Of a stretch of DNA of 39,661 bases, positions 23 through 18,934 are shown piece after piece. Positions within the stretch are counted from its first letter, which is position 1; the number at the start of each line of letters is the position of its first letter. The position numbers and the translations under genes were made by a program. The notes below the pieces were generated by a model, which had not been told where the DNA came from, did no database searches, and was given only the letters and a program-made list of their open reading frames with translations. Source of the DNA: Rhodobiaceae bacterium (lineage in GTDB: Bacteria; Pseudomonadota; Alphaproteobacteria; Rhizobiales; JAKPQE01); NCBI GenBank assembly GCA_028278505.1, contig JANQEG010000044.1:1-39661 (forward strand). The letters are read 5' to 3'.

Positions 23-99
23 GGCGGGGTAGCTCAGCTGGTTAGAGCAGCGGAATCATAATCCGCGTGTCGGGGGTTCAAGTCCCTCCCCCGCTACCA
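23..99 (+). tRNA. tRNA-Met (anticodon CAU)
   Basis: A complete 77-nt cloverleaf with encoded CCA. The acceptor stem GGCGGGG pairs with CCCCGCT (first pair G-U). The D arm is GCTC/GAGC (32-35, 45-48) and the anticodon stem GCGGA/TCCGC (50-54, 62-66) encloses loop ATCATAA, giving anticodon CAT at 57-59. The T stem GGGGG/CCCTC closes loop TTCAAGT. CAU is read by elongator Met; initiator Met and lysidine-modified Ile2 share this anticodon, but the first acceptor pair and general sequence fit elongator Met best. The part from 56 to 99 is duplicated at 18891-18934, so the 3' half was probably supplied by an integrating element. Confidence 0.95.
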
Positions 100-792: not shown

Positions 793-927
793 TCATTTAT
801 GGGGAGGAATGACGCGAAATATCTTCGTTCGCGTCAGGCGTGGCGTCGCAGATCAATCGAGCGTTCAGATTGGACGCCCGACGAATAACAGAAATACGTG
901 CTGCCACGGCTTCAACGGGGACCATCC

Positions 928-1821
928 ATGCTGCGCAAGCTCGTCCTGGCGTGCTTGGCGGTGCTCATGGCAATAACTGCCTATGCCGCCGACGAAAAAC
1001 CGATCAAGTTCGGCCTGACTGCCGTCGTCGTTCGTGACAATCTTCGCTTCTTTGACGAAATGGCCGGCTATCTGTCGAGCCATCTGGATCGCTCAGTGAC
1101 ATTCGTGCGGCGAAAGAGCTATCGCGAAATCATGGAATTGCTGGCGAGCGGCGATTTGGATTTCGCTTGGATCTGCGGTTATCCCCTCGTCCAAAAACGG
1201 GAACCGGAATTTCTGACTTTGCTCACGGTACCCGTCTACAAGGGCAAGCCGTTCTACCGGTCCTACATTATCGTCCACAAGGACAGTAACCTGAACAGCA
1301 TCGAGGATCTGCGCGGCAGGGTCTTTGCCTATTCGGATCCGGACTCGAACTCCGGCTATCTCTATCCGCGGTACCATTTGGCAACCAAGGGATACCGGCC
1401 CGACAACTTTTTCCGTCAAACGTTTTTCACCTATAACCATGCGGAAACCGTCGAAGCGGTCGCCGCGCGTTTTGCCAATGGTGGCGCTGTCGAATCCTAT
1501 ATCTGGGAGTTTCTTCAGATCACCAATCCGGAACTGGTCGGCCAGACCCGCGTCATCCATGCGTCATCCGAATTCGGTTTCCCGCCGATTGTCGCCCGCA
1601 ACGATTTACCGCCTGAACTGATCGGCGGAATGGCGCGCGCATTCGCTGGAATGAAATCGTCCGCCGATGGCCGACGTCTGCTTGGCGCGCTCCACCTTGA
1701 TGGTTTCGGCAACTATCACATTGATCTCTATAACGATATCCGGGTCATGGCGGCACAGATCCGCAAACGTAGCGACATCTCCGCCGTATCTCGTCGGCGC
1801 AATGGCGGGAAGGAGAGATGA
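928..1821 (+). CDS. PhnD-like periplasmic substrate-binding protein (sensor input)
   Basis: This 297-residue protein has a signal peptide (MLRKLVLACLAVLMAITAYA, cleavage after AYA near residue 20) and then a type-2 periplasmic binding fold of the phosphate/phosphonate (PhnD) class. The family hallmarks are FGLT near the mature N-terminus, the LASGDLDFAWICGYP segment, and the EDLRGRVFAYSDPDSNSG hinge region. ATG 928 is chosen because GGGGA lies about 8 bases upstream and the signal peptide starts there. There are no ABC permease or ATPase partners, and the next gene is a histidine kinase overlapping by ATGA. It therefore probably presents a periplasmic ligand to the kinase rather than feeding a transporter, as is known for three-component sensors of arsenic- and sulfur-oxyanion respiration. 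The ligand is not identifiable. Confidence 0.85.
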   Translation: MLRKLVLACLAVLMAITAYAADEKPIKFGLTAVVVRDNLRFFDEMAGYLSSHLDRSVTFVRRKSYREIMELLASGDLDFAWICGYPLVQKREPEFLTLLTVPVYKGKPFYRSYIIVHKDSNLNSIEDLRGRVFAYSDPDSNSGYLYPRYHLATKGYRPDNFFRQTFFTYNHAETVEAVAARFANGGAVESYIWEFLQITNPELVGQTRVIHASSEFGFPPIVARNDLPPELIGGMARAFAGMKSSADGRRLLGALHLDGFGNYHIDLYNDIRVMAAQIRKRSDISAVSRRRNGGKER

Positions 1822-3322
1822 GCGCGGCGCCGTACCGGCTCAGGAGCCTCTCGGTCGCGTTCCCAATCGCAATAACGGCGATTATCGCCGGCGTCGGTTT
1901 CACGATCGGCGCCGCCGTCATTCTTCAAGACTGGTTTCGCTTCCGCGAGGCGCTGGAGGAAAAGGCGTTGTTGCTGGCGCGGTCGATTGCCATTTCCGCG
2001 CCCGAAGTCATTCTGCAGAACGATTCCTGGACGCTTTTCAAGACGCTCCGCGAGACGGCGTCGAGCTCGCTCGACGGCATTCCCGATACGCGCATTCTCT
2101 CCGGCATGGTGCTCGATCCGCATGGCGTGATCCTCGCCCATCTGGAACCCGCCTCGCACCCCGTCGGCCTCGTCATCTCTCCGCGCGAGGACACCGAACG
2201 GCGCGTTCTCGACAAGGTTCTCAAGCTGAAAACCGCCGCGGTCATTCACGATAGCAGTTTTATAAACGAGACCTTCATCGAAGGGATTGTCCCGGTCTAT
2301 TCCGACGAGAAGAAGATCGCGATCGTCCGCCTGCGATTGTCGACCGCTGATCTCGTCTCGCAGGCCTGGAACGGTGCGATTACGGTGCTCGGGATCACCG
2401 TCGTCTTGGTCATCGTCGGAAGTGTTTTCGGCACGCTGATTTCGCGCCGCATGGTGCGGCCGATCGCGGCTCTCGCCCGCGGCATGGAATCCGTCGGCCG
2501 CGGCCACTTCTCCGACTTGCCGCCGATCGACACCAGAAATCGCCGAGACGAAATCGGCCAACTCGCCGCCTCGTTCGAGCGTATGGCCTCCGAGCTTGAG
2601 GACAAGAAGCTGCTCGAGCAGGAAATCGCTGCAAACGAGAAAATGGTCGCGCTCGGCCGTATCGCGGCCGGCGTCGCCCATGAAGTAAACAATCCGCTTG
2701 CCGGTATCTTGAACTGTCTAGACACGATCAAGAAGCGGCCTACCGACGGCGAGTTGTTGACACGGTATCTGCCGGTGATCGAAAACGGCCTTCACCGCAT
2801 TCGGCTTATCGTTGCCGGATTGCTCGGCGGTCTGCGTGTGGAGGGCGCCCAGGAGTTGGCCGGTCCGCAATGTCTCGATGATTTGCGTGAGATCGCCCTT
2901 GTCGAGATCGGCGACCGGCCGATCGATCTGGTCTGGAGCAACCGGCTTTCTACAAACGTCGCCCTGAACCGGCAGCGGGTCCAACAGGTCATATTCAATC
3001 TCTTGAAAAACGCGTTTCAGGTTCTCCAGGACGACGGCACAGTGAGTTTCCGGGCCTTCCAAGACGGTCATTGCGTGATCTTGGAAGTCGAAGACGACGG
3101 CCCGGGTATCTCGGCAGACCATCGCGAGCGATTGTTCGATCCCTTCTTTACAACGCGAAGCGACGGTACGGGTCTTGGCCTGTGGATCGTTTATCGCCTG
3201 GTGCGCAGCATGAACGGACAAATCGAAGTTGAAAGCGTCGAAGGAAAGGGCGCCCTGTTTCAGGTCTTCCTCCCGGCCCGCGCGGACAGTGATCGAATCG
3301 CCGATATGCGAAAGGTTGGTTG

Positions 3323-3323
<1 letters not shown>
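1818..3323 (+). CDS. Membrane sensor histidine kinase
   Basis: A 501-residue kinase. A first membrane segment lies at about 12-35, a periplasmic sensor region at about 36-186, a second membrane segment at about 187-208, then HAMP (about 209-262), HisKA with phosphoacceptor His288 in the AHEVNNPL H-box, and HATPase_c with N-box (VIFNLLKNAFQ), VEDDGPGI and TRSDGTGLGLWIV. Start ATG 1818 overlaps the binding-protein stop (ATGA), with AAGGAGAG in front. The stop overlaps the regulator start (TGATG), so the three genes are translationally coupled. The catalytic core is complete. It most likely reads ligand occupancy of the preceding binding protein and phosphorylates the following regulator. Confidence 0.93.
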
Positions 3324-4693
<1,370 letters not shown>

Positions 4694-4765
4694 TACCAAG
4701 GGCAGACAATTGTGACTCATCTGAAATGGGCCAGAATTATCGGCCCTTCGTATAAGGTGATCGGC

Positions 4766-5419
4766 ATGGCGGCCAGGCCGGAAAGACGCATCCTTCCAAT
4801 GGTTGTCTCGGCGATTTTGGGCATTGCGGCAATCCTACCGGGAAGCGCTGCCCAGGCATGCGGCTGGGGCGGCGACGGCGAGATGTCTCGTGAGGATATC
4901 GCCGGTTTTCCGACATTTGACGGGGAACCTCTGCCGGAAACGCTGTCATTGGCGACGGCGTGGCTTCCCAATCGGATGGGATTCGGCATCGCCGTCCCTG
5001 AACCCGGCCGCGCGATACCGTATCTTCAGGCGACATATGGGCGGCGGCCTAACGCAATCGGGGAATTCAAGGCGTACGGTTTTCGCGCCGTTATCGATAT
5101 TGGAACGCCCACCGCCAAGGCGGCACGACATCGCATCGAAGCTGAACTCGCCGGAATGTCCTATTTCAATATCCCCGTCGCCGGTGAGATGCCGAGCATT
5201 CCGGAGACGCAGCATTTCACGCGGCTCGTGCTGCAAACGGCCGATGACTCCCTGCTCGTCTATTCCTTGTCGCCGCAGCTCCTGGGCGTCATGTGGGCCT
5301 CGCACCGGATCAATCTGGGATCGCCCGTGTCGTTTGCCATCGCCGAAGCCCGGCTGCTGGGATTGACCGAAGAGCAGGAAGCGTTGCTCCGCAGACGCGC
5401 CGGTGCAGGGACGAATTGA
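4766..5419 (+). CDS. Secreted DUF442/DSP-like pseudo-phosphatase
   Basis: A 217-residue protein with a signal peptide (positive n-region ARPERR, hydrophobic 11-27, cleavage AQA before Cys32) followed by CGWGGDGE. The body resembles the DUF442 / dual-specificity phosphatase-like fold: AIPYLQ...GEFKAYGFRAVIDIGTP, then YFNIPV, then a region matching the P-loop and following helix. The P-loop, usually HC-x5-R, reads YSLSPQL here (166-172): Ser167 replaces the catalytic Cys and Leu172 the Arg. It should therefore be inactive as a Cys phosphatase and may bind a ligand or partner in the periplasm. ATG 4766 has AAGGTGA just upstream; a GTG at 4712 in frame lacks a good site and would bury the signal peptide. 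It sits 72 bp after the regulator on the same strand. Confidence 0.7.
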   Translation: MAARPERRILPMVVSAILGIAAILPGSAAQACGWGGDGEMSREDIAGFPTFDGEPLPETLSLATAWLPNRMGFGIAVPEPGRAIPYLQATYGRRPNAIGEFKAYGFRAVIDIGTPTAKAARHRIEAELAGMSYFNIPVAGEMPSIPETQHFTRLVLQTADDSLLVYSLSPQLLGVMWASHRINLGSPVSFAIAEARLLGLTEEQEALLRRRAGAGTN

Positions 5420-6079
5420 TCAGACCGTTTCGGGCACTTCGCCGCCGATCGTCTGCTGCTCGAATTCCAGGACGTTTTTGGCAAGCTTGGCCATCGCCGC
5501 ATAGAAGGGCAACTCCGCCTTGTCGATCACGGCGTCGCATAGTCTCGGAATCCAGTTGACCATATGTTCGGCGAGAAATTTCCCTTGCACGCGACGGCAC
5601 CAGTCCGCACGCTCCGTTTCTCCGCCGGACAGAAGATCGGCCTCCGCCGCGGCCAGTTTCTGCATGAACTCGAACGCGACGCTGACGTGATCGGGAAGCC
5701 CGGTAAAGTTCTGTTCGTACGTGAAACCGGCCGTTTCGATGAACTTCTTCACTGCCACGGTCCTTTCGCCCCACAGACCGCCTTCGCCGCCCTCGACATT
5801 GGCGAAGATCGATTCATGCGGCGAAAGATGGGATCCGGGACCGATGAATAGTTTTGTGAATTCGACGGACAATTCCTGAGCCAGATCTTCGGGTGGTGCC
5901 TGATGAAAAGCGGCACCGAGAGACAGATCCATAGCATCGAGCGTCTCTGTGAATCCGGGCGCCTTCAGCATCCGGACAAGCGCCTGTGTTGGCGCCGCCC
6001 GGAAGATCGCGGCCAACAGTCCATACACTTGCATGCGGGCACGCGCTTTGTCGGCCAAGTCCTTCCGGGCGGTATCCAT
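5420..6079 (-). CDS. TorD/DmsD-type molybdoenzyme maturation chaperone
   Basis: This 219-residue, all-helical cytoplasmic protein lacks a signal peptide. The family signature is SVEFTKLFIGPGSHLSPHES near residues 90-110, matching the E-x-x-x-L-F-x-G-P-x-x-P-x-x-S core of TorD-like chaperones. These bind the Tat leader of a molybdoenzyme and hold it for cofactor insertion. It begins 25 bases after the Mo-enzyme stop with GGAG ahead of the ATG, so it is the last gene of that operon. Its stop codon directly abuts the stop of the convergent pseudo-phosphatase (TGA then TCA, no bases between), leaving no room for an intergenic terminator. Confidence 0.88.
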   Translation of the reverse strand: MDTARKDLADKARARMQVYGLLAAIFRAAPTQALVRMLKAPGFTETLDAMDLSLGAAFHQAPPEDLAQELSVEFTKLFIGPGSHLSPHESIFANVEGGEGGLWGERTVAVKKFIETAGFTYEQNFTGLPDHVSVAFEFMQKLAAAEADLLSGGETERADWCRRVQGKFLAEHMVNWIPRLCDAVIDKAELPFYAAMAKLAKNVLEFEQQTIGGEVPETV

Positions 6080-6104
6080 CTTTCTGCTCCTTCGGTATTG
6101 CGGA

Positions 6105-8639
6105 TCAGGCCTTGGCGACCCGAACCACGTTATCCATCCAACGCATCGTCCCGCTGATCGGATCCGACCAGTTGGCCATCAGCACGTTGGGGTGGACGCC
6201 GTGTTTATCCCACCATTTGTTCTTGGCGTCCGGATCTGCCGCGCCGCCGCCGGGTGTCGGCGAAGCCTTGCCGGAACCGTAGACACCGGACTGCTGGCGA
6301 CCGAGGCTGTGGGAAATGGCGATGATGCCGGGAATGATCCCCTCAGTGACGTAGGCTGTCGTGGCGATTTCACCAGTGCCGTTGGTCACCTTGATCGCAT
6401 CACCGTCCTTGATGCCGCGTTCGGCCGCGGTCTTGGAATTGATCCAGGCCGGATTGTCGTGCTTGATCTCGGACAGCCATTTGCAGTGCGTCGTCCGGGA
6501 GTGCGTGTGCACGGCGGTCTTGTAGGTGGTGAGGATCAGTTCGTCGTCGGCCTTCTTCGTGTGCTCCGGTATCGGTGTGTATGTCGGGAACGCCGGAAGG
6601 CCTTTTTCGGCGAAGTTGTCGGAGTAGAAGTCCAGGTACCCCGCCTTGACGAACTTCGTATTCGGCGGATAGGCGAGATAGGCTGTGCCGTCAATATCCT
6701 GAGCCACGTAGCCTTTCTTGGCGCCCGGCGTCTTCAAATAGCCGACCGATTTCGCTTCCGCCTCGTCCTTGGCGCCGGATTTCTTCCAGTTCCAGTAGAC
6801 CCCGGTTTCATCGTCGAGGATGACCCCATCGCCGGAGGTGTCGACCGTCGCCTCGTAGAAGCCGTAGTTGGGTTTGGCGTTCGGATCGTGCCAGACGCCG
6901 TGCTTCTTCATGTACTCGAAGCCGCCAGCTCCCTTGACCCCCGGCGTCATTTCGCAGGACTGGCGGACGAAATCCTCCTTGCTTGAATAGGCAAGCTCGA
7001 AGCCGATGCGTTTTGCCAGTTCCGGCCAAACATCGCCCTGACACCGTGCCTCGCCAAGTGGCTTGACCAGCGGTTGCCGGATATAGAACTCGGCGATCTG
7101 ATTGGCAGAGACCATGTCCTCCCAATCCCACCGTTCCAGATAGGTGACGTCCGGCAGGATGATGTCGGCATATTGCGACGACTCGTCATAGACGATGGTG
7201 GTGCAGATCTGGAACGGGACGATGCTTTCATCCGCCATGATCGCGGCAACGCCATTGTTGTCGCCGTTGATGAAGGCCGGATTGTAGCAACTCCACCAAT
7301 AGACCTTCGGCCGGCCGTGCGAGCCGTCCTTGATCATCGGCCAGACCTGATGGCTGACGTGATGGGTCGGATAGGCCGCCTCACCGGGGAAGCCGTCATT
7401 GATGTTCAGCGATTTATGCACTTCAGCCACCGGCGATGACGGATGCTTCCAGCCGGCGCCAACGCCCATGACCCGGCCGCCGGCGCGGTCGAGATTGTTG
7501 GTAATGGCGGCAAGCAACATGGCCGCGCGTTCCTGATCGGCGCCGTGATAGTGCATGACGGTGCCGCGATAGGTGACCAGGCAGGCCGAATTCGCCTTGG
7601 CGAAATCGCGCGCGATCTGCCGGATCTTGTCGGCCGGAACGCCGCTCTGCTCCTCTGCGAATTCGGGCGTGAAAGCAGCCACCTGAGATGTGACGGCAGC
7701 GATCCTGTCGTCCACCGAGGCCTTATAGTCCTTGGTCACGCGCATGAATTTGAAATGGTCCTTTCTGAAAAGACCCTCGTTCATGATGACGTTGCACATG
7801 GCCAGCATGACCAGGCCGTCATGGCCGACATTGATGGGTACCCACTCCGTCGACATGGCTGCGGTATTGGTGAGCCGCACGTCGAAGGTATAGACCGGCA
7901 CATTGCGCTGAACCTTGGCCCGGATCAGCCGCTGCGCGGTCGGTATGTGGTTGGTGTGGGCCTCGAAATTGTTCGAGCCGAAAATGACAACGAAGTCGGT
8001 GTTGTCATAGTCCCAGTTGTCGTACATGCCGCCCCACAGGCTTTCCTGGCCGACCCATTTGCCGGCCTCGCACACCGAGGTGTGGTTGCCGATGGTCTTG
8101 GTGCCGTAAGCGGCCATGAAGTCGTACATGGTTGCGGCCTGAGACGCCTTGTGCCGGCCGTACTGGTACATGAACAGCTCCGGCGTGCCGGCATCGCGGA
8201 GTTCCTTGAGCTTTGCGGCGATGGTGTCGAGCGCCTCATCCCAGGAAATCCGTTTCCATTTGTGCTCGCCGCGTTTACCGACGCGTTGAAGCGGATAGAG
8301 GATCCGGTCCGGGAAGTAGACCTGGTTCACACCGGCCTGTCCGCGCGCGCAGAGTTTGCCGAGCGTGCGGATCGAATTCGGATTGCCTTCGATCTTTCTC
8401 AGCCGGCCGTCTTCGACGTGGCCGATGATGGAATCCCGGGTCACGCACTGCCAGCAGGCGGACGGAATAGCCTCGAGCTGCTTGCCGGTTGTCGGCGAGA
8501 AATCAATCCCGGACGCCTCCTTGGAGGGGATATCGGCGGTTCCGGCAAGGGCCTGACCGCTTGCTCCGGCCCCCGCCGCCAGCGCGGCGCTGCTCGCGCC
8601 CGCCAATTTCATGAAGTTTCGACGATCTAGTCTGGTCAT
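6105..8639 (-). CDS. Periplasmic molybdopterin oxidoreductase, DMSO-reductase superfamily
   Basis: An 844-residue catalytic subunit. The leader carries a Tat motif (DRRNFMKLAG, 5-14) and an Ala-rich region ending near LAG 31-33. The N-terminal FeS motif is C62-W-Q-C65-V-T-R-D69 ... C97, with Asp69 where the third Cys is usual. The MGD-binding domains follow, and HTSVCEAGKW places Cys190 as the likely Mo ligand, as in the sulfur-oxyanion and arsenate reductase branch. The C-terminal molydop-binding domain includes THCKWLSE and AISHSLGRQ. ATG 8639 is chosen because GGAGC precedes it and the Tat motif starts there; an upstream in-frame ATG adds 16 residues without a site. It lies between the FeS gene (28-bp gap) and the TorD gene. 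The substrate is unknown: thiosulfate, polysulfide, tetrathionate, arsenate or another oxyanion all remain possible. Confidence 0.9.
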   Translation of the reverse strand: MTRLDRRNFMKLAGASSAALAAGAGASGQALAGTADIPSKEASGIDFSPTTGKQLEAIPSACWQCVTRDSIIGHVEDGRLRKIEGNPNSIRTLGKLCARGQAGVNQVYFPDRILYPLQRVGKRGEHKWKRISWDEALDTIAAKLKELRDAGTPELFMYQYGRHKASQAATMYDFMAAYGTKTIGNHTSVCEAGKWVGQESLWGGMYDNWDYDNTDFVVIFGSNNFEAHTNHIPTAQRLIRAKVQRNVPVYTFDVRLTNTAAMSTEWVPINVGHDGLVMLAMCNVIMNEGLFRKDHFKFMRVTKDYKASVDDRIAAVTSQVAAFTPEFAEEQSGVPADKIRQIARDFAKANSACLVTYRGTVMHYHGADQERAAMLLAAITNNLDRAGGRVMGVGAGWKHPSSPVAEVHKSLNINDGFPGEAAYPTHHVSHQVWPMIKDGSHGRPKVYWWSCYNPAFINGDNNGVAAIMADESIVPFQICTTIVYDESSQYADIILPDVTYLERWDWEDMVSANQIAEFYIRQPLVKPLGEARCQGDVWPELAKRIGFELAYSSKEDFVRQSCEMTPGVKGAGGFEYMKKHGVWHDPNAKPNYGFYEATVDTSGDGVILDDETGVYWNWKKSGAKDEAEAKSVGYLKTPGAKKGYVAQDIDGTAYLAYPPNTKFVKAGYLDFYSDNFAEKGLPAFPTYTPIPEHTKKADDELILTTYKTAVHTHSRTTHCKWLSEIKHDNPAWINSKTAAERGIKDGDAIKVTNGTGEIATTAYVTEGIIPGIIAISHSLGRQQSGVYGSGKASPTPGGGAADPDAKNKWWDKHGVHPNVLMANWSDPISGTMRWMDNVVRVAKA

Positions 8640-8667
8640 TTTCGTTGCTCCTGTTCCGGCGGCCGGC

Positions 8668-9519
8668 TCACGGAATCTGGTCCACATAGTGGTCCAGCTT
8701 GCCCTTTTCGCGCTGCTTGTAGACGGTCTTCATCACGCCATCGGGATCGAGATAGAAGACGTGCGGATTGGTGCCTTCTTCGTGCAGCAGCACGTAGTCC
8801 GGCGTTGCCAGATTGTGCTCCTTGACGAGCATGGAGACTTCGCTTTCGGGATCGTTGAGATCGCCGAATATGCGGGCACGCCCCTGGCAGGTGTTGACGC
8901 AGGCCGGCTCGACGCCGTTGTCGACGCGATGGGCGCACATATCGCACTTGTCCGCGGCCTGTTCGGTCGGGTCCTTGCCGGCCTTGACGAACGGATCGAA
9001 CGAGCGCACGCCGTACGGACAGGCATCGAGGCATTTGCCGCAGCCGATGCACAGCTCTTTGTCGATCAGGATCAGCCCGTCGGGGCGTTTATAGGTCGCG
9101 CCATGCCGATAGCGGATCTTCTCGCCACTCGGAATGGTCCATTTGCGCCGCTCGCCGGGATATTCCGGACAGGCCGTCACGCAGGGCGGAACCTTGTCCT
9201 TCTCATTGCCCGCGCAGTGATTGCACATGATCGGCAGGAACCGCTTCTTCGTCTCCGGGAACGTTCCCCAGGTCTTCTCCTGGACGACGGTGCGGAACCG
9301 CCCGAGCGAAACGTCGTTCTCCGCCTTGCAGGCAACCGTGCAGGCGCGGCAACCGATACAGGCGCGAAGGTCCATCACCATCGCCCAACGCGGGGCCTTG
9401 GCGGCGGCCTTCGCTTCGCTCGCAGGTACGGCGACCGCCACGGCACCGACCGCGGCCGCGCCGCCGGCACCTGTCAACACGTCACGCCGGTTGACCATCG
9501 GCGCTTTTGTTTCAGTCAT
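8668..9519 (-). CDS. Tat-exported four-[4Fe-4S] electron-transfer subunit
   Basis: This 283-residue protein carries a Tat-like leader (NRRDVLTGAGG, 10-20) and is of the DmsB/PsrB/TtrB type. Sixteen Cys fall in four groups: 54/57/60/64, 99/102/113/117, 157/160/163/167 and 192/195/207/211, the full complement for four [4Fe-4S] clusters. It should form a periplasmic wire between the molybdoenzyme (next gene) and the multihaem cytochrome (previous gene). The ATG at 9519 has a strong GGAGG 9 bases upstream. No NrfD/PsrC gene follows, unlike the usual three-subunit arrangement, so electrons probably pass through the cytochrome. Confidence 0.93.
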   Translation of the reverse strand: MTETKAPMVNRRDVLTGAGGAAAVGAVAVAVPASEAKAAAKAPRWAMVMDLRACIGCRACTVACKAENDVSLGRFRTVVQEKTWGTFPETKKRFLPIMCNHCAGNEKDKVPPCVTACPEYPGERRKWTIPSGEKIRYRHGATYKRPDGLILIDKELCIGCGKCLDACPYGVRSFDPFVKAGKDPTEQAADKCDMCAHRVDNGVEPACVNTCQGRARIFGDLNDPESEVSMLVKEHNLATPDYVLLHEEGTNPHVFYLDPDGVMKTVYKQREKGKLDHYVDQIP

Positions 9520-9593
9520 GCTGGTTTCCTCCCTTTCGTTTCATGTTCGCTACGCCGCCCGGTATCCGCCGAGCAGTTGGCGCCGGTGCGCCG

Positions 9594-11180
9594 TTATCCT
9601 TCGCTGTCGATGCGGTCGATCGCGTCCTCGAACTTGGTGAACGCCTGATCGAGAATCGTGATTGCGTATTTCTTGTTGTGGACGCCGTTGCCGAAGCGCA
9701 CGATGTTCAGGAATTCCTGACCTTCGGCGATAATCTTTTCGAGCTCGAGGAAGGTTTCGCCGGTGAGCTTTCCTTCGGCGCCCCTCAGCGCGTCGAGCGC
9801 TTCCTTCTCGATGTCCTCGACATCCCGGACCTCGCGGGTGACCGCCTGCTTCCAATCGTCGAGCATCTGGTTGTGCTTCGGCGTGTGGCAGGCCGCGCAG
9901 GTGTCACCGGCCGCGGTTCTGACCGCATGACCTTGGCTCAGCGTCTTCTTCTGATGACACGCCATGCAGTTGACGTTGACGTTGAACATCAGGTGTGGGG
10001 TCGATGAGACGTCCTCATTGATCGGCGTGCCGGACAGAAGAACCTTCTGGTACTTGTGCTGATCCTGGTGGCAGAGGCCGCAATCCTCGCGCACGAAATC
10101 GAGGTGATCGGTGCGGTTCTTGTGCTCGATGACGCTGTGGCAGTCGAAGCAATCGGCCTTTTCGGGAACGTGCTTGCCATGCATGAGCACCTTGTCCTTG
10201 GCCTGCTCGAGCAGTTCGGCGCCGCGGTTGTGGCAGGTCAGGCAGCCATTGGCGACGACGTTGCCGGTATTGACCTCGCCATGACCCTTGACGACCTCGA
10301 AATGACAGCTCTCACATGGCACGCCGGCGCGCTTGATGGTCTGATGAGTGATCGCCTCCTTGAGGGAGTCGCCGGCCTCCAATTGCGCTTGCAGGGATTT
10401 TGTCGGGATCTCGTGGCAGATGTCGCAGCGCGATGCGCCTTGATTGAAGTCGATGGCGGCGCGGTTCTTGAAGCTGATGGTAAAACTCGGCGGCGCCCCA
10501 TTGCCGCCCATCAATCCGCTCATACCGGCCATGCCGCTCATGATCATGACGCCGGTCGCCGTAACGCCCTTGTCCTGCGGTTCGCCGACGCCGACAACGG
10601 CCTTTTCGAGCGTTGGTTTTTCGAGTTTCAAATGGCACAGGAAACAGATGTCCTTCGGCACCTCGAAGTGCTTCTTCTCGGTGACCTTGAAATGGCAGGT
10701 GTCGCAGGTGATCGTGTGGCCATCGAGCGCCTTGTCGCCGAAATGAACCTTGTGCTTGAACCGCGATTTCTCGGTGAATTTCAGTTCGGTGTCTTCGAAC
10801 TTGGCCTTGTCGTGGCAACCAGACCGAAGGCAGGCGCCGTCCTTAATCACCGGTCGGATCGGCAATGGTGCGTTCTTGTCGTAGAGATAGGCCGCCAGAT
10901 GCCGAAGCCCCTCCCATTTTGCCTTCAGTGATCTGTGCGCGCCGGGCAGGAAGTGGCAGTCGATACAACCGGCCTCCTTACCCTCGGCGTTCTTGCTGGC
11001 GTGGTGTTTGTTGTTCTTCCAGGCCACATATTGCTCGGTCATGGTGTGACATGAGCCGCCGCAGAAGCCGGACGTCGCCGTATAGGATTCGACGCCCGCC
11101 CAGGCACCGAAAACGAGGACGGCCACGATCGCCAGTCCGATGAACAGGCCTTTCAGCGTCAGGCTAAATCGCAGCGCCAA
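9594..11180 (-). CDS. Membrane-anchored dodecahaem cytochrome c with NapC/NirT-like N-terminus
   Basis: A 528-residue protein. A single membrane anchor (about 8-30) is followed by GFCGGSCHTM, like the first haem of NapC/NrfH quinol dehydrogenases. Haem-binding motifs: CX3CH at 40, CXXCH at 72, CX4CH at 117, then CXXCH at 159, 179, 252, 289, 313, 344, 367, 405 and 428, twelve in all. A Met/Gly-rich loop (about 211-228) separates the first five from the rest. The last ~95 residues are haem-free and helical. The start is taken as TTG 11180 behind a GGGGGGA stretch; no ATG precedes the anchor. As first gene of the - strand operon it is downstream of the sigma-54 promoter. Likely role: move electrons between quinone and the FeS/Mo subunits. 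Confidence 0.88.
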   Translation of the reverse strand: MALRFSLTLKGLFIGLAIVAVLVFGAWAGVESYTATSGFCGGSCHTMTEQYVAWKNNKHHASKNAEGKEAGCIDCHFLPGAHRSLKAKWEGLRHLAAYLYDKNAPLPIRPVIKDGACLRSGCHDKAKFEDTELKFTEKSRFKHKVHFGDKALDGHTITCDTCHFKVTEKKHFEVPKDICFLCHLKLEKPTLEKAVVGVGEPQDKGVTATGVMIMSGMAGMSGLMGGNGAPPSFTISFKNRAAIDFNQGASRCDICHEIPTKSLQAQLEAGDSLKEAITHQTIKRAGVPCESCHFEVVKGHGEVNTGNVVANGCLTCHNRGAELLEQAKDKVLMHGKHVPEKADCFDCHSVIEHKNRTDHLDFVREDCGLCHQDQHKYQKVLLSGTPINEDVSSTPHLMFNVNVNCMACHQKKTLSQGHAVRTAAGDTCAACHTPKHNQMLDDWKQAVTREVRDVEDIEKEALDALRGAEGKLTGETFLELEKIIAEGQEFLNIVRFGNGVHNKKYAITILDQAFTKFEDAIDRIDSEG

Positions 11181-11372: not shown

Positions 11373-11387
11373 GCAACTTTCGTGCCA
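11373..11387 (-). promoter_or_regulatory. Sigma-54 (-24/-12) promoter of the cytochrome/FeS/Mo operon
   Basis: Read on the - strand, the sequence is TGGCACGAAAGTTGCC. It matches the sigma-54 consensus TGGCACG-N4-TTGC with the invariant GG and GC exactly 10 bases apart. Transcription would begin near 11361 and run toward the cytochrome gene at 11180. It sits in the 543-bp divergent gap 11181-11723 that otherwise holds no gene. The island encodes an activator with an intact GAFTGA loop. Confidence 0.78.
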
Positions 11388-11460: not shown

Positions 11461-11478
11461 CGTTACTGATCCGTAACG
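11461..11478. promoter_or_regulatory. Proximal dyad, candidate upstream activator site
   Basis: CGTTAC-TGATCC-GTAACG, an 18-bp dyad whose arms are identical to those at 11554-11571. It lies 74-91 bases upstream of the -24 element, the distance range expected for NtrC-class enhancer sites. A partial direct repeat of TACTGATCCG abuts it. Confidence 0.55.
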
Positions 11479-11553: not shown

Positions 11554-11571
11554 CGTTACCGTACGGTAACG
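11554..11571. promoter_or_regulatory. Distal perfect palindrome, candidate upstream activator site
   Basis: CGTTACCGTACGGTAACG is a perfect 18-bp palindrome sharing the CGTTAC/GTAACG arms of the proximal dyad. The centres are 93 bp apart. It is about 167-184 bases upstream of the sigma-54 promoter and about 150 bases ahead of the divergent HlyD gene, so it could serve either side. Confidence 0.58.
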
Positions 11572-11723: not shown

Positions 11724-12731
11724 ATGCAGTGGAAGCGATTGGGTTTAATTGCCGCCGTTATCGTCCTTGCCGTCGGTGCAGGCCTGGCTCTTTTCAGGAG
11801 CGGCAAAAGCGATGTTCCTGAGGGCATCGCCTACGGCAATGGCCGTATTGAGGCCGTTCAGGTCGACATCACGACCAAGATTGCCGGACGCGTGCAGGAC
11901 GTGTTGGCGAAAGAAGGCGATCTGATCGAAAAGGGCGACAAAGTCGCGATCATCGACTCGGCGCAGTTGCGTGCTCAATTGCTGCGGGCCAAGGCCGAAA
12001 TCGCCAGCGCCGAAAGTCAGGTCGCCGTGGCCAAGGCCTCTATCGCACAGGTCAAGGCACAACTCATCTTGGCGGAACAGGAGCTGGATCGCGCCAACCA
12101 GCTCCTGGAGAAGGGGCATGCGACCCGCGAGACCTACGATACACGGGTGAGCCAACGTAACATTGCCAAGGCCAACCTGGCGGCGGCCGAGGCCACAATG
12201 ATCTCACGCGAACGCAGTGTCGATGCAGCAAAGGCTGCGGCTGAAGAGATCCAAACACAGATCGACGACTGCACGCTCATTTCGCCCACAATCGGCCGTG
12301 TTCTTTATCGCCTGACCGAACCTGGCGAGGTGCTGGGCAGCGGCGGCAAGGTGCTGACCATCGTCGATCTCTCCGATGTCTATATGGAGTTCTTCCTGCC
12401 ATCGGCACAGGCGCACCGTGTATCGATCGGCAGCGAGGCGCGCATCAAGCTGGATATTCTCGACGTGGCGGTCCCGGCCAAAGTGAGCTTCGTCTCGCCC
12501 CGGTCGCAGTTCACGCCAAAGCAGGTGGAAACGCCGAGTGAGCGCGAAAAACTGATGTTTCGCGTCAAGGTACGCGTGCCGCAAGAATTGGTGATGACAT
12601 ATATCGATCAGGTCAAAACCGGCGTTCGCGGCGTCGCCTATGTGCCTCTCGGCGTCGATCCCGAACCACAATGGCCCGCTTTCCTGCAAAACCTGCCTCC
12701 TGAAACCGCCGAAACGACGAGCACGAACTAG
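11724..12731 (+). CDS. HlyD-family periplasmic adaptor of an ABC exporter (YhiI type)
   Basis: A 335-residue adaptor with an N-terminal signal anchor (about 5-24), the split biotinyl-lipoyl domain (QVDITTKIAGRVQDVLAKEGD, about 46-66, and its partner around 205-225), an Ala/Gln-rich coiled-coil hairpin (about 80-175) and a beta-barrel region. ATG 11724 is preceded by GGAG at a slightly long spacing. Such proteins bridge an inner-membrane ABC transporter to an outer-membrane channel. The ABC ATPase and permease follow. Its TAG stop (12729-12731) lies inside the terminal repeat of the inserted element at 12728-13003, so the original C-terminus may have differed. Confidence 0.88.
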   Translation: MQWKRLGLIAAVIVLAVGAGLALFRSGKSDVPEGIAYGNGRIEAVQVDITTKIAGRVQDVLAKEGDLIEKGDKVAIIDSAQLRAQLLRAKAEIASAESQVAVAKASIAQVKAQLILAEQELDRANQLLEKGHATRETYDTRVSQRNIAKANLAAAEATMISRERSVDAAKAAAEEIQTQIDDCTLISPTIGRVLYRLTEPGEVLGSGGKVLTIVDLSDVYMEFFLPSAQAHRVSIGSEARIKLDILDVAVPAKVSFVSPRSQFTPKQVETPSEREKLMFRVKVRVPQELVMTYIDQVKTGVRGVAYVPLGVDPEPQWPAFLQNLPPETAETTSTN

Positions 12732-13003
12732 AGCCTTTCATGGTTTGCTTGAACCATTCTGACGGAGCGATTTTGCCCCAAGGTCAAGCCGCGTCGCGCA
12801 CGGCCATACCGGGCGAATGGTCAAGCGGCGCGGCGCCGGAATTGGCGCAAAAGCGCCCGTCCCTTCGGGTTTCCGATTGGCGGGCATCCGCCGGCAACCC
12901 GCTCTTGCCCGATGCCCCACATCGACCGGTGAGCGGCTCACCGGCGGGCTGCCGCGCCAATCGAGAAACAGAATTGATTCAGACAAGCCATGAAAGGCTC
13001 TAG
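12728..13003. mobile_element. MITE-like 276-bp insertion with ~34-bp terminal inverted repeats
   Basis: The left end begins CTAGAGCCTTTCATGG (12728-12743) and the right end is its exact inverse CCATGAAAGGCTCTAG (12988-13003). Similarity continues inward with mismatches to ATTCTG/CAGAAT, giving inverted repeats of about 34 bp. The interior is GC-rich with no gene. It splits the HlyD and ABC ATPase genes of one operon. No clear target duplication is seen apart from the CTAG ends themselves. No second copy is present in the window. Confidence 0.72.
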
Positions 13004-13019
13004 CACGCAGAGAAGAAAG

Positions 13020-15764
13020 ATGGCCGAACCGGTTTCATGGGTCGCGAAGGTCGGGGACGTTACCCATGTCTACAAGAAGGTGCGCGCGCTTGCCCACGTA
13101 ACCCTCAACGTTCCCTCCGGGCAGATGGTCGGTCTGCTCGGCCCGGACGGGGTCGGCAAGTCGACATTGCTCGGCCTGCTGTCCGGCGCCCGCACATTGC
13201 AGCAAGGGGACTTGCAGGTGCTGGGAGGCGACATGTCGTCAGCCATGCACCGCCGGAAGGTCGGTCCGCGCATCGCCTATATGCCCCAAGGGCTCGGCAA
13301 GAACCTCTACCAGGAACTGAGCATCCGCGAAAACCTCGATTTCTTCGGCAGTCTATTCGGTCAGGGCAGAACCGAGCGCAAAGCCCGCATCGACCGATTG
13401 ACAAGGGCGACGGGTCTACACCCGTTTCTCGACCGTCCGGCCGGCAAGCTTTCAGGCGGCATGAAGCAAAAGCTCGGTCTGTGCTGCTCGCTCATTCACG
13501 ATCCGGATTTCCTCATCCTTGATGAGCCGACCACGGGCGTCGATCCCCTGTCGCGACGTCAGTTCTGGGAGCTGATTGACGCCATACGCGCGGAGCGACC
13601 GGCCATGAGCGTGCTGGTGTCCACCGCCTATATGGACGAGGCCGAGCGTTTCGACTGGCTGGTGGCCATGGATGCAGGACGGATCCTTGGCACGGGAACC
13701 CCGAAAGACATAAAGGCGCGGACCGGCACCGACAATCTGGAAGCCGCTTTCGTGCAATTGCTGCCGGAAGATCAACGCGACGGCAGGGCCGCGCTCGAAA
13801 TCCCGCCGCTCGAAAAAGTCGACGGAAATCCGGCCATTGTCGCCAAAGGACTGACACGTCGGTTCGGAGATTTTACCGCTGTCGACAAAGTCAGTTTCGA
13901 GATTCAGGAAGGCGAGATTTTCGGTTTTCTCGGTTCCAATGGCTGCGGCAAGACGACGACCATGAAAATGCTCACCGGTCTGCTCCCGGCCTCCGAAGGT
14001 GAGGCGTATTTGTTCGGACATCCGGTCGACGCCCATGACCTTGAGACCCGAAAACGGGTGGGTTTCATGTCGCAATCCTTCTCGCTCTACGGCGAGCTGA
14101 CGGTTGAGCAAAACCTGATCCTGCATGCGCGTTTGTTTCACCTGACGCGTGAAAAAACGGGGGAGCGAATCGAGGCACTGACCGAGCGTTTCGGCCTTGC
14201 CCGGCACATGGATCAGCTCGCCTCCGCACTGCCGCTCGGCATGCGCCAACGTTTGTCGTTGGCCGTCGCCATCATCCACGAGCCGGAAATGCTCATTCTC
14301 GATGAGCCTACCTCTGGTGTCGATCCAGTGGCCCGCGATGAGTTCTGGCAGCTGTTGATCGAACTTTCACGCAACGACAAGGTGACGATCTTCATCTCCA
14401 CACACTTCATGAACGAGGCGCTGCGCTGCGACCGCATCTCGCTGATGCATGACGGGCAGGTGCTGGTCTACGACGAGCCGGACAAACTGGTCGAGACCAA
14501 GGGCGCGGAGACTCTGGAAGAGGCGTTCATCTCCTATATCGAGGAGGCCATCATTGAGCCCGTCGATAACGGCGAGGCAACAGCGACGCTCTCCGCAGCG
14601 CCCGTGCAATCGGTGCAAGATCATAAGGAGTTGCACCGTTTCAGCATTACCCGCCTTCTCGCCTACAGCTATCGCGAAATGATGGAGGTGATGCGCGATC
14701 CCGTGCGGCTCGCTTTTGCTTTTCTGGGAAGCGCGATCCTGCTCATCGTGATCTCCTATGGCGTTTCGACCGATGTCGAGGACCTGAGTTTTGCGGCGTT
14801 CGATCTCGACAGAACGCCACAGAGCCGTGCGTATTTGAGCAATTTGTCCGGTTCTCGATATTTCGTCGAACGGCCTGATCTGCAAAGCCGGGACGATCTT
14901 GAAAGACGTTTGAAGTCCAACGACATCACGCTGGCCGTGGAGATCCCACCGGGATTTGGCCGCAATCTGAAAAAGGGCATGACCCCCACCGTGTCGGCGT
15001 GGATCGATGGCGCCAATACCATACGGGCAGGCACCATCGAGGGTTATGTTTCGGGCGGCCACGAAGTCTATATCTCCGACCTCGCACGTGATGCAGGCAT
15101 TGATCTGGCGGCCACGCTGAACGCCACCATTGAACCGCGTTTCCGTTACAACCCCTCTTTCGAGAGCATCTACGCTGTCGGACCTGCGGCCCCGGCGCTG
15201 CTTCTGTTGCTGTTTCCGGCCATTCTGATGGCGGTCAGCATCGCCAGGGAAAAGGAAATCGGCACGATCACCAATTTTTACGTGACACCGACCAACCGGC
15301 TCGAATTCCTCATCGGTAAGCAGCTTCCCTATGTCGTCATCGGCATGGCGAACTATGTGATCCTGACGCTTTTGGTGTTGCTCGTTCTGCAGGTGCCCTT
15401 GAAGGGCAGTATTCTGGCACTCTCGCTTGGCGCCGTCTTTTATATCGGCGCGTCCACGGGATTTGGCCTTCTCGTCTCGTCGCTCACCAGAAGCCAGGTG
15501 GCCGCCGTCTTCGCCACCGCCATCCTCTCCATGCTGCCGACCATGCAGTTCTCCGGCTTCATTCGCCCGGTATCGACGCTCGAAGGCGCCGGCCAGTTCA
15601 TCGGTTCGCTGTGGCCGACCACCTACTACATGCATCTGAGCAAGGGGGCCTACACCAAGGGACTGAACATCTTCGACCTTGCAAACGACCTCTTCGCCCT
15701 CGCGCTCTTCGTCCCCGTCTTCATCGTCATCGCGGCGCTGTTCCTGAAGAAGCAGGAGGCCTGA
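13020..15764 (+). CDS. rbbA: RbbA-type ABC exporter: two ATPase domains fused to an ABC-2 permease
   Basis: A 914-residue fusion. ATPase domain 1 has Walker A GPDGVGKST (41-49), signature LSGGMKQK and Walker B FLILDEPTTGVDP. Domain 2 has Walker A GSNGCGKTT (about 308-316), LPLGMRQRLSL (a form usual in this class) and MLILDEPTSGVDP. The C-terminal ~360 residues are an ABC-2 membrane domain with a first helix near FLGSAILLIVISYGV, a large extracytoplasmic loop and several C-terminal helices. Length and order match the RbbA/YhiH family. ATG 13020 is used, with AGAAGAAAG upstream; an ATG at 12990 lies inside the inserted element's terminal repeat. It is coupled to HlyD upstream and the permease downstream. 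The exported substrate is unknown. Confidence 0.9.
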   Translation: MAEPVSWVAKVGDVTHVYKKVRALAHVTLNVPSGQMVGLLGPDGVGKSTLLGLLSGARTLQQGDLQVLGGDMSSAMHRRKVGPRIAYMPQGLGKNLYQELSIRENLDFFGSLFGQGRTERKARIDRLTRATGLHPFLDRPAGKLSGGMKQKLGLCCSLIHDPDFLILDEPTTGVDPLSRRQFWELIDAIRAERPAMSVLVSTAYMDEAERFDWLVAMDAGRILGTGTPKDIKARTGTDNLEAAFVQLLPEDQRDGRAALEIPPLEKVDGNPAIVAKGLTRRFGDFTAVDKVSFEIQEGEIFGFLGSNGCGKTTTMKMLTGLLPASEGEAYLFGHPVDAHDLETRKRVGFMSQSFSLYGELTVEQNLILHARLFHLTREKTGERIEALTERFGLARHMDQLASALPLGMRQRLSLAVAIIHEPEMLILDEPTSGVDPVARDEFWQLLIELSRNDKVTIFISTHFMNEALRCDRISLMHDGQVLVYDEPDKLVETKGAETLEEAFISYIEEAIIEPVDNGEATATLSAAPVQSVQDHKELHRFSITRLLAYSYREMMEVMRDPVRLAFAFLGSAILLIVISYGVSTDVEDLSFAAFDLDRTPQSRAYLSNLSGSRYFVERPDLQSRDDLERRLKSNDITLAVEIPPGFGRNLKKGMTPTVSAWIDGANTIRAGTIEGYVSGGHEVYISDLARDAGIDLAATLNATIEPRFRYNPSFESIYAVGPAAPALLLLLFPAILMAVSIAREKEIGTITNFYVTPTNRLEFLIGKQLPYVVIGMANYVILTLLVLLVLQVPLKGSILALSLGAVFYIGASTGFGLLVSSLTRSQVAAVFATAILSMLPTMQFSGFIRPVSTLEGAGQFIGSLWPTTYYMHLSKGAYTKGLNIFDLANDLFALALFVPVFIVIAALFLKKQEA

Positions 15765-15766
15765 CG

Positions 15767-16891
15767 ATGCGCACACTGATCAACATCTTCTGGCTCGGCA
15801 TTAAGGAATTTCGAAGCGTTTTCAGCGACATGATTATGCTGTTCCTCATTATCTGGTCGTTCAGCTTCTCCATCTACGAGCAGTCGAGCGCCATTGGCGA
15901 GACCGTCAACAACGCTTCCATCGCTTTCGTCGACGAGGACCGCTCGGCTTTGTCCCGCAAGCTGCGGGGTGCGCTCTTTCCACCCTATTTCCAGACGCCG
16001 CAACTGATCGAATCGACGGACATCGATGAGGGCATGGATCAGGATCGCTATATGTTCGTCGTCGTCATCCCGCCAGACTTTGAGGCCGATATACGCAAGG
16101 GGCGTCAGCCCAGCATCCAGCTCAATATCGATGCCACCACTGCTGAGCAGGCAGGCCTTGGCTCCGCCTATATTCAGAATATCCTGACCGATGAAATAAA
16201 CAGGTTTACGGCCCGCGCCGACGCGACAACAGCCTTGCCCGTGGACCTCGTCATCCGCCGTGCGTTCAATCCCAACGGCACCCAGAAATGGTTTCAGGCC
16301 ATCGTCGCGCTGCTCGATCAGCTCTCGATGCTGACCATCGTCCTGACCGGCGCCGCGCTGTTGCGTGAGCGCGAGCACGGCACCATCGAACATCTGCTGG
16401 TCATGCCGCTGACCTCGTTCCAGATCGTCATGTCCAAGGTGTGGGCCAACGGCTTTGTTATCCTCGCCGCTTTCACGCTGTCGGTTTTTTTCGTTGTCGA
16501 ACGCTCGCTCGACGTGCCGATTGCCGGTTCGAAAGCCTTGCTGCTGGCCGGCACCACGGTTTATCTGTTCGCCGCCGCCGCCATCGGCATTTTTCTGGGC
16601 ACCATCGCCCGCACGATGGCGCAGTTCGCCATGTTGATGATGATGACCATCATACCGATGAACATGTTGTCGGGCGGCATGACTCCGATCGAGAGCCAGC
16701 CGGAGATCGTGCAGTATATCACCTGGTTTCTGCCGTCCCGCCACTACATGGCGTTTTCGCAGGCGGTCGTGTTCCGCGGCGCCGGTATTGATATCGTCTG
16801 GCCGCAATTCCTGACCGTCTCCGGGCTCGGCTTCATCTTCTTCGTTGGCAGTTTGGCCCTCTTCCGCCGTTCCATCACGGTGAGTAAATAG
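15767..16891 (+). CDS. ABC-2 type exporter permease (YhhJ type)
   Basis: A 374-residue membrane protein. One helix near the N-terminus (about 18-36, MIMLFLIIWSFSFSIYEQ), a long extracytoplasmic region (about 37-180) and five or more helices in the C-terminal half, including LSMLTIVLTGAALLREREHG and the conserved MNMLSGGMTPIESQPEI loop. ATG 15767 is 2 bases after the stop of the fused ATPase-permease, with AGGAGG upstream. The order HlyD, fused double ATPase, permease equals the YhiI/RbbA/YhhJ set. It probably pairs with the ABC-2 half of the preceding protein to form the channel. Confidence 0.9.
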   Translation: MRTLINIFWLGIKEFRSVFSDMIMLFLIIWSFSFSIYEQSSAIGETVNNASIAFVDEDRSALSRKLRGALFPPYFQTPQLIESTDIDEGMDQDRYMFVVVIPPDFEADIRKGRQPSIQLNIDATTAEQAGLGSAYIQNILTDEINRFTARADATTALPVDLVIRRAFNPNGTQKWFQAIVALLDQLSMLTIVLTGAALLREREHGTIEHLLVMPLTSFQIVMSKVWANGFVILAAFTLSVFFVVERSLDVPIAGSKALLLAGTTVYLFAAAAIGIFLGTIARTMAQFAMLMMMTIIPMNMLSGGMTPIESQPEIVQYITWFLPSRHYMAFSQAVVFRGAGIDIVWPQFLTVSGLGFIFFVGSLALFRRSITVSK

Positions 16892-18338: not shown

Positions 18339-18890
18339 AAATTGCCAGAATCTCGCTTGCCAGACCGTCGAAATTGCGGGGAAGCGGCAAAATCGGCTTT
18401 CGGTTTTGGCGAGAAACAGGGGACATGAACCGTTTCTCTCTTAACTCGTTGATTTATTGAGGATTTGCAACGCCGCCACGGGGGAAATCACACTACACGA
18501 CACAAACAACATCACCACGACCCTTCGCTCGTCACCACCCGGTTTATCCGGGTGGTCCATTGGCTTGTCGACTTGCCAACGCATTTGTGAAGAAATTCAA
18601 CGCTTCTAGGTACCGGTAGGCCATTGGATTGCCCGCTTGGGAGCGGGCAATGACGACGCAAGAGGGATCGAAACCATCCCAAAATGCCTAAATCGGATAG
18701 CGTTGGGACAAACCCGGCAGGACCGAAATATCCGGTTGTGTCGTGTAATTTGGGGGAAAATAGCAACATTATCCATGAGTTTTGGTGTGACCGCCTGCCA
18801 TTTCGGAATTGGCACGTTATCTGCCACGTTTGTGTGATTAATTCTAATTTATCCATAAATATCAGATCATTAATAAACGGCGCACGCACA
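18339..18890. other. Gene-free island right end
   Basis: No gene is supported here. The stretch contains repeat copy 2 (18495-18746) and then an AT-richer segment (18747-18890) leading up to the tRNA fragment. No integrase or excisionase is seen. Confidence 0.65.
18495..18746. repeat. MITE-like mosaic repeat, copy 2
   Basis: This 252-bp unit is bounded by ACACGACACA (18495-18504) and TGTGTCGTGT (18737-18746), the same ends as 155-399. It has the same internal parts in the same order: the CACCCGGTTTATCCGGGTG hairpin, CCATTGG, and ATTGCCCGC...GCGGGCAAT. Extended ends match CACTACACGACACAA. It lies 144 bp inside the right tRNA fragment and in direct orientation to copy 1. Confidence 0.72.
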
Positions 18891-18934
18891 TCATAATCCG
18901 CGTGTCGGGGGCTCAAGTCCCTCCCCCGCTACCA
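18891..18934 (+). repeat. Isolated tRNA-Met 3' fragment (right attachment-site copy)
   Basis: 44 bases identical to 56-99 except for T to C at 18912, the first base of the T-loop. It runs from the anticodon loop to CCA. Nothing resembling the tRNA 5' half precedes it, so it cannot be a functional tRNA. It is read as the 3' end displaced when the island inserted, which marks the right junction. Confidence 0.85.

Follow-up and report, generated by a model that had tools for sequence, protein, structure and literature searches.

A contig of a Rhodobiaceae bacterium (JANQEG010000044.1 of assembly GCA_028278505.1, positions 1 to 39,661; this 39,661-nucleotide stretch is hereafter the window) contains an operon of four genes encoding a molybdoenzyme, an iron-sulfur (FeS) protein, a TorD-type chaperone and a multihaem cytochrome. 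With confidence a little above even, we favor the reading that this operon encodes an arsenite oxidase that is induced by arsenite, belongs to a molybdoenzyme family of its own and is wired by haem to the quinone pool or to a soluble cytochrome c. We read the operon in this way because the regulatory logic around it is that of arsenite oxidation and because the molybdoenzyme combines ArrA/ArxA-like catalytic columns with a clade of its own. An earlier note on this DNA had described a molybdoenzyme of the twin-arginine translocation (Tat) type, an FeS protein, TorD and a NapC-like cytochrome of about 12 haems in one operon, with dedicated sensing genes nearby, and had held that the substrate is not identifiable from motifs. 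The operon is confirmed by open reading frames, domain searches and motif counts, and the sensing genes are present as a periplasmic binding protein (PBP), a histidine kinase and an NtrC-type regulator (898-4693, + strand). The statement on the substrate is not supported by our analysis: the sensor subfamily, the regulator type, the sigma-54 promoter, the operators, the catalytic columns and the ars neighbours in relatives point to arsenic oxyanions. The features of the sensing genes, the operon and its upstream region are as follows.

898..1821, + strand: AioX/ArxX-type periplasmic sensor (X), a PBP (closest PDB relative AioX at 4e-62, pocket residues, X tree)
1818..3323, + strand: sensor histidine kinase (S) with HAMP domain (curated-family and Pfam searches)
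3320..4693, + strand: NtrC/AtoC-type sigma-54 response regulator (R) (curated-family and Pfam searches)
5420..6079, - strand: TorD-type chaperone (Nitrate_red_del domain)
6105..8687, - strand: molybdoenzyme catalytic subunit with a twin-arginine signal, 844 amino acids (aa) from its likely start (Molybdopterin and Molydop_binding domains)
8668..9519, - strand: FeS protein with 16 Cys, TtrB/DsrO/ArrB-like (Fer4 domain, twin arginines)
9594..11180, - strand: NapC-like membrane cytochrome with 12 haem motifs (Cytochrom_NNT and cytochrome c3/c7 domains)
11373..11387, - strand: sigma-54 promoter-like site TGGCACGAAAGTTGC, TGGCACG-N4-TTGC with no mismatch (pattern search, upstream of the cytochrome gene)
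11462..11477: palindrome GTTAC-N6-GTAAC, fitting the AioR consensus GTT-N10-AAC
11555..11570: another GTTAC-N6-GTAAC palindrome, spaced 93 bp from the one above

The cytochrome, FeS, molybdoenzyme and TorD genes all lie back to back on the minus strand. The molybdoenzyme is 860 aa long from the first ATG and 844 aa according to its relatives and the database record, and it carries one N-terminal twin-arginine pair, as does the FeS protein. Among 7998 candidates scored, 1835 molybdoenzyme relatives were found, and the related loci are the best 80 of 553 relatives from a scan of named genome contigs. The order cytochrome-FeS-Mo-TorD is contiguous in 33 of these 80 loci and is therefore not due to chance.

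Sensor, regulator and operators

The sensor matches AioX best in the PDB (213 bits, 4e-62), followed by ArrX (137 bits) and PtxB (61 bits). The pocket of AioX is formed by Tyr88, Cys106, Tyr131, Ser161, Ser163, His192 and Asp210, and there are hydrophobic loop residues that have no counterpart in ArrX, according to PMC5908839. The window sensor keeps Y88, C106, Y131, S161, N162, S163 and H192 of AioX, with D210 changed to E, and its hydrophobic loop reads GLTAVVV (GLTPVFL in AioX). Cys106, which binds arsenite in AioX, is kept in every one of the 33 locus X proteins that reach 230 aa or more. According to PMC5908839, AioX and ArxX bound arsenite and no other oxyanion tested, including antimonite, thiosulphate and tetrathionate. 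The tree of X proteins splits cleanly, with the window sensor, 23 locus proteins, AioX, ArxX, the AioX-type protein of Jhaorihella and the KH32C protein on one side; a further X protein from the window's genome groups with ArrX and 10 locus proteins on the other. The window sensor is a member of the AioX/ArxX/ArrX subfamily on its AioX/ArxX side and is predicted to bind arsenite. The regulator is of the NtrC/AtoC type, the same type as in the Aio and Arx systems and unlike ArrR; Aio and Arx regulators are described as AtoC-type and ArrR as CitB-type (PMC5908839).

The sigma-54 site TGGCACGAAAGTTGC is the single mismatch-free site in the window. With up to 2 mismatches, 21 sites are found versus 17.9 expected, so only the perfect match is counted. 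The two perfect GTTAC-N6-GTAAC palindromes compare with 0.19 expected in the window with up to 1 mismatch, and the 3.35-Mb assembly has no others. Across the related loci, 72 such sites occur in 30 of 80, versus at most 10 for 59 permuted half-sites. The palindromes form a pair between X and the cytochrome gene in 12 close relatives (91-93 bp apart) and more closely spaced pairs in four gammaproteobacterial double clusters (L050, L056, L061 and L074; 42-44 bp apart), and in KH32C a single one lies between X and the operon. The AioR consensus is GTT-N10-AAC (PMC5335332), and at a genuine aio locus (L142) there are six loose sites of this kind (1.5 expected), one of them of a GTTCGG type like the footprinted AioR site. 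Regulation of the AioR/ArxR type is predicted for the window, as an AtoC-type AAA+ regulator, a sigma-54 site and a GTT-N10-AAC operator are all present; the loose consensus alone is weak.

The molybdoenzyme clade and its predicted haem wiring

In a search of curated NCBIfam models, the molybdoenzyme stays under the cut-offs of PhsA (NF012032, 332 bits, cut-off 694), DmsA (274 bits, cut-off 778), ArrA (NF041714, 154 bits, cut-off 1600), TtrA (102 bits, cut-off 1750) and AioA (TIGR02693, 31 bits, cut-off 359). We note that model NF041714 fails the Arx reference as well (431 bits, cut-off 1600). AioA has a Rieske partner, and no Rieske domain is among the Pfam matches of the operon proteins. In a FastTree tree of 113 rows, 88 rows form one clade with a support of 100, apart from ArxA, ArrA-like, E. 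coli PhsA, TtrA-like and other references. A mixture-model tree of 35 rows contains a 22-row family clade (98) with the plasmid enzyme of Azoarcus KH32C inside, and the ArxA and ArrA-like rows form a separate five-row clade (99). The catalytic subunit of the window is outside the ArxA/ArrA clade in both trees, which are of quicker kinds and have long branches, and in which ArrA is represented by ArrA-like rows only. The earlier note's description of the molybdoenzyme as unassigned, with haem wiring in place of NrfD, is supported; among rows that include TtrA only as TtrA-like rows under the curated cut-off and no verified PsrA, SrrA or SoeA, it forms no tight cluster with any single characterised enzyme having those partners. 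Among the best 80 of 553 relatives, those nearest to the window's enzyme come chiefly from Alphaproteobacteria of the Rhodospirillales/Kiloniellales type and from Thiodiazotropha or lucinid-symbiont Gammaproteobacteria. Magnetovibrio sp. PR-2, which seems to be available as a culture, encodes an enzyme with 78% identity. Among the papers listed on putative or newly described arsenite oxidases, judged on titles and abstract starts, we recognised nothing as this clade, and no paper joined Thiodiazotropha with arsenite or KH32C with arsenite oxidase; subscription papers were mostly outside both searches.

Residues R162, H186, C190 and Y206 of the family (844-aa numbering) align with R165, H189, C193 and Y210 of ArrA, which reportedly line its arsenate site. 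This R-H-C-Y set is found in 78 of 85 family rows, with R-H-C-F in 3 rows and other residues in 4 (one a fragment). The set is common to ArxA, Arx-like and ArrA-like rows and is not shared by Psr (H/P/C/H), E. coli PhsA (K/H/C/-) or the TtrA-like row (P/H/C/H). The predicted structure of the molybdoenzyme has a predicted local distance difference test (pLDDT) score of 67.9 with a poorly modelled active-site stretch; on this middling model, Foldseek gives Arr the top E-value and Psr the higher template modelling (TM) score, and VIA-align ranks Nap at the top, with Arr, formate dehydrogenases and Psr only a little lower, so that the fold does not discriminate among these enzymes.

Comparison with named systems shows which parts are shared. 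The ArxB'ABCD-ArxXSR cluster for anaerobic arsenite oxidase on the plasmid of Sulfuricella denitrificans skB26 (L125; PMC6549141 calls it an arx cluster) likewise places a Cys-type molybdoenzyme, with FeS and TorD genes, next to an XSR module, and has a GTTAC-N6-GTAAC site and the R-H-C-Y columns, but its Mo subunit falls in a separate clade (27-33% local identity), and it has NrfD and a second FeS gene where the window has a dodecahaem cytochrome. The AioXSR/AioBA system is alike in its sensor subfamily, AtoC-type regulator, sigma-54 promoter and GTT-N10-AAC operator; it differs in that the Mo of AioA is without an amino-acid ligand (PMC10100899), and in the AioA family score of 31 of 359 bits. 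The nearest named outside branch is the pAZKH locus of Azoarcus sp. KH32C (L124), which has XSR, the palindrome, 37% identity and, on its own side, an ars operon, and which differs in its NrfD wiring and in the Ile at its Tyr column.

The cytochrome contains 10 CX2CH motifs, one CX3CH motif and one CX4CH motif, and all 12 are invariant in 33 aligned homologues; the CX3CH and CX4CH motifs probably bind haem as well. It has a NapC/NirT N-terminal domain (Cytochrom_NNT, 54 bits, cut-off 24.1) and one N-terminal hydrophobic segment, stays under the cut-offs of the NCBIfam NapC and NrfH models, has no sequence match in the PDB, and gives a low-confidence structure prediction (pLDDT 46.5). The NrfD subunit had been reported missing, and indeed PF03916 has no match on the window's contig; the three matches of the genome are on contigs C27, C21 and C102. 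By automatic labels, 41 of the 80 loci are haem-wired, 23 are NrfD-wired and 16 are neither, some of these 16 being cut contigs or missed labels (L056, for example, has NrfD). On the tree, the wiring changes 2 times among 69 labelled rows. Six related loci (L017, L021, L022, L023, L027 and L038) carry a gene for a dihaem cytochrome c, which suggests that electrons may leave by a soluble route.

Some relatives have more elaborate clusters. Several Desulfobacterota loci have an extra octahaem cytochrome after TorD, and some add a second FeS gene and an NrfD gene. In the Desulfobacterota-type loci L030, L032, L033, L039, L077 and L085, an 11-haem cytochrome precedes the enzyme, an octahaem cytochrome follows TorD, and further FeS/NrfD genes are present; the octahaem cytochrome of L033 matches 6i5b and, weakly, MccA. 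In the gammaproteobacterial double clusters (L050, L056, L061, L074), the family is represented by two enzymes, accompanied by a protein with an EB_dh domain, GTTAC palindrome pairs at several places and a 303-aa protein (read in L057) that has GGGIHN/GKGIHN motifs and no Pfam family.

Arsenic genes and competing explanations

Arsenic genes were searched in 44 genomes, 43 of them reached via 44 loci that we chose from the 80, plus the window's own; all carry this enzyme. An X-type sensor at E<=1e-20 is present in 38 (32 with one copy and 6 with two). With at most 16 candidates scored per genome, ArrA is above its cut-off in none of the 44, ArrA-like genes reach 1100-1313 bits in 4, and no match near the Arx reference level (431 bits) is among those listed; candidate-rich genomes could still hide an Arx gene. 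AioA is above its cut-off in 8 genomes, once at 1075 bits and seven times at 350-422 bits, the latter possibly iodate-reductase-like. ACR3 is above its cut-off in 29 of the 44 genomes. Near the enzyme, it is above its cut-off in 5 of the 80 stretches (L024, L030, L032, L037 and L085), compared with about 0.2 expected over all 80 loci (1.23 Mb); three of the five are Desulfobacterota or related deltaproteobacterial, so that not all are independent. The P of about 4e-7 for this enrichment, calculated for the 44-genome set, is overstated because the chosen 44 included loci with known ars matches. Matches to ArsC, ArsA, ArsD, ACR3 and an ArsR-like protein follow the Mo-haem locus L037 of a bacterium known only as BMS3Abin06, arsD-arsA lies beside the enzyme locus in L052, and arsC-arsD-arsA-ACR3 with a helix-turn-helix gene lies beside the KH32C locus.

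Two genomes carry further arsenic-type genes. In the genome of Jhaorihella thermophila (L064, L142), an AioA gene at 1075 bits (with one in-frame TAG) and an AioX-type sensor are present, together with a stretch encoding the enzyme family described here (L064). The window's genome has an ArrX-side sensor, a PAS kinase and a LuxR-type regulator near the end of contig C52 (L138), and a multihaem cytochrome, a cytochrome b561-like protein, an ArrA-like enzyme (1099 bits), an FeS protein and TorD at the start of contig C83 (L127). If these contigs are adjacent, as we suppose, they make up a possible second arsenic-type module of the same genome.

Several observations weigh against an arsenite oxidase. 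Among the curated families, PhsA (332 of 694 bits) rather than ArrA (154 bits) scores highest with the molybdoenzyme, and a single-sequence PDB search placed Psr/thiosulfate reductase first (174 bits) and ArrA second (149 bits), an order that a family-profile search reverses (ArrA 233 bits, Psr 223 bits). In the active site, the KH32C enzyme carries Ile at the Tyr column, and K198 of ArrA is unaligned (a Lys stands 4 residues after the Cys in the family and 5 in ArrA). The window sensor has Glu at the position of AioX D210. The sensor-direction rule is not clean, because Desulfobacterota relatives pair ArrX-side sensors with sigma-54-type regulators: 9 of the 10 loci with ArrX-side sensors carry a regulator related to that of the window (36-49% identity). 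In addition, 20 of the 23 NrfD-labelled loci have no X gene in the stretch examined. Regarding the operators, an exact TGGC-N7-TTGC follows the palindrome pair in 8 of the 12 loci of close relatives, the one GTTAC palindrome of the Sulfuricella arx locus sits within the annotated first FeS gene, loose GTT-N10-AAC sites are common (9 in the window, 4.6 expected), and the genuine aio locus L142 has no GTTAC palindrome. The window's own genome, which is 84.9% complete, has no ACR3 match. Finally, pocket residues alone do not decide between As(III) and As(V), and regulators and enzymes have separate histories, according to PMC5908839.

These points leave room for a few other explanations. One is that the operon runs in the opposite direction, as an arsenate reductase in which quinol would pass electrons to the NapC-like cytochrome and then to the FeS and Mo subunits, with As(V) as the respiratory acceptor. 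We think this unlikely. CymA feeds ArrAB in this manner in Shewanella, and the window resembles that system in its R, H, C and Y columns and in the NapC-family N-terminus of its cytochrome. Moreover, ArrA is the top solved relative of the family profile, Desulfobacterota members have ArrX-side sensors, and ArrX keeps the same pocket. However, the 12-haem cytochrome is encoded in the operon, unlike the separate tetrahaem CymA, the ArrA cut-off is far off (154 of 1600 bits), and the window sensor is on the AioX/ArxX side with the hydrophobic loop present. Aio and Arx share the window's AtoC type of regulator, whereas ArrR is CitB-type (PMC5908839). The role of an arsenate reductase would also be better filled by the separate ArrA-like gene of the genome on C83 with the ArrX-side sensor and LuxR-type regulator at the end of C52, if these contigs abut.

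It seems to us equally improbable that the sensor responds to arsenite and the enzyme acts on something else, such as antimonite, thioarsenate, selenite, thiosulfate or polysulfide. Such a thiophilic substrate would fit PhsA as the top curated family and Psr as the top single-sequence solved relative, the many hosts named as sulfur-oxidising symbionts or Desulfobacterota, and the separate histories of regulators and enzymes (PMC5908839). Against it, the PhsA score is under its cut-off, the R-H-C-Y set is missing in Psr and PhsA, and ars genes and GTTAC palindromes accompany the enzyme in several subclades. An antimony oxidase of the NaoABC type was considered and rejected; NaoABC groups with NapA and includes a Rieske subunit (PMC11521347). 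We consider it very improbable that the enzyme is an ordinary reductase of thiosulfate or polysulfide working with an unusual partner: the PhsA hidden Markov model (HMM) scores highest, Psr is among the closest solved folds and the Cys ligand is shared with PhsABC/PsrABC, but the enzyme is 27% identical to E. coli PhsA and in a separate clade, those systems have a PhsC or PsrC membrane subunit where the window's contig has no NrfD-type gene, the R-H pair is missing from them (K/H in PhsA, H/P in Psr), and the regulation is of the arsenite type. An assignment as thiosulfate or polysulfide reductase from the top HMM was rejected, as the PhsA cut-off is not reached and the catalytic columns differ.

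Island setting and possible meaning

The remaining features of this part of the window are as follows.

23-99: tRNA-Met(CAU)
55..99, + strand: left copy of the flanking repeat, 44/45 identical to 18890-18934
4712..5419, + strand: ORF235, a conserved protein whose N terminus has a hydrophobic segment (relatives in 10 of the 80 loci)
11724-16891: HlyD-type adaptor, fused ATP-binding cassette (ABC) ATPase-permease and second permease (ABC exporter set)
18890..18934, + strand: second copy of the repeat from the tRNA-Met 3' part, forming the island's right end

A 45-bp repeat of the 3' part of tRNA-Met, with 44 identical positions, is found at 55-99, inside the tRNA-Met gene (23-99), and at 18890-18934. 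The G+C content is 0.53-0.62 to about 20 kb and 0.63-0.71 over most of the remainder. The duplicated tRNA-Met end and the shift in G+C content place the sensor genes, the operon and the ABC exporter set on one 18.8-kb island, bearing out an island location that had been claimed before. No integrase was noticed on the island, in the course of work that included no search aimed at integrases. The ABC exporter set has no evident arsenic link. For ORF235, a Pfam search gave no family above its cut-off; there is a faint phosphatase-like hint (PTP-NADK, E 0.079, under the cut-off).

The sequences themselves show the set of genes, the subfamily and pocket of the sensor, the promoter and operator sequences, the separate clade and the conserved layout. 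For an arsenite oxidase, we infer the substrate, the direction of the reaction, the regulation in the cell and the electron acceptor along the following lines. The AioX-type sensor would bind As(III), the kinase would phosphorylate the NtrC-type regulator, and the regulator would bind the two GTTAC-N6-GTAAC operators and drive the sigma-54 promoter ahead of the cytochrome gene. The Mo subunit would be matured by TorD and exported with the FeS subunit by Tat, and As(III) would then be oxidized at the Cys-ligated Mo. The dodecahaem cytochrome would serve as the membrane electron link in place of NrfD, so that electrons would pass from arsenite to the Mo centre, the iron-sulfur clusters, the 12-haem NapC-like cytochrome, and finally the quinone pool or a soluble cytochrome c.

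In a broader view, which we hold tentatively and at less than even confidence, the clade may add a third family to the respiratory molybdoenzymes of arsenic, next to AioA and ArxA/ArrA. It would be arsenite-oxidising in Alpha- and Gammaproteobacteria under AioXSR-type control and arsenate-reducing in Desulfobacterota with ArrX-type sensors, and NrfD would be replaced by a dedicated 10- to 12-haem NapC-like wire in one large branch. The Desulfobacterota branch with ArrX-side sensors may run backwards as an arsenate reductase. The family also offers a clean test of a haem wire replacing an NrfD subunit inside one enzyme family, because the swap is confined to a few branches. Arsenic respiration is counted via aioA, arxA and arrA; should this enzyme act on arsenic, such counts overlook an entire lineage of arsenic metabolism. 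If the proposal is true, sulfur symbionts, marine Rhodospirillales and Desulfobacterota would run a hidden arsenic cycle that escapes surveys of these three genes.

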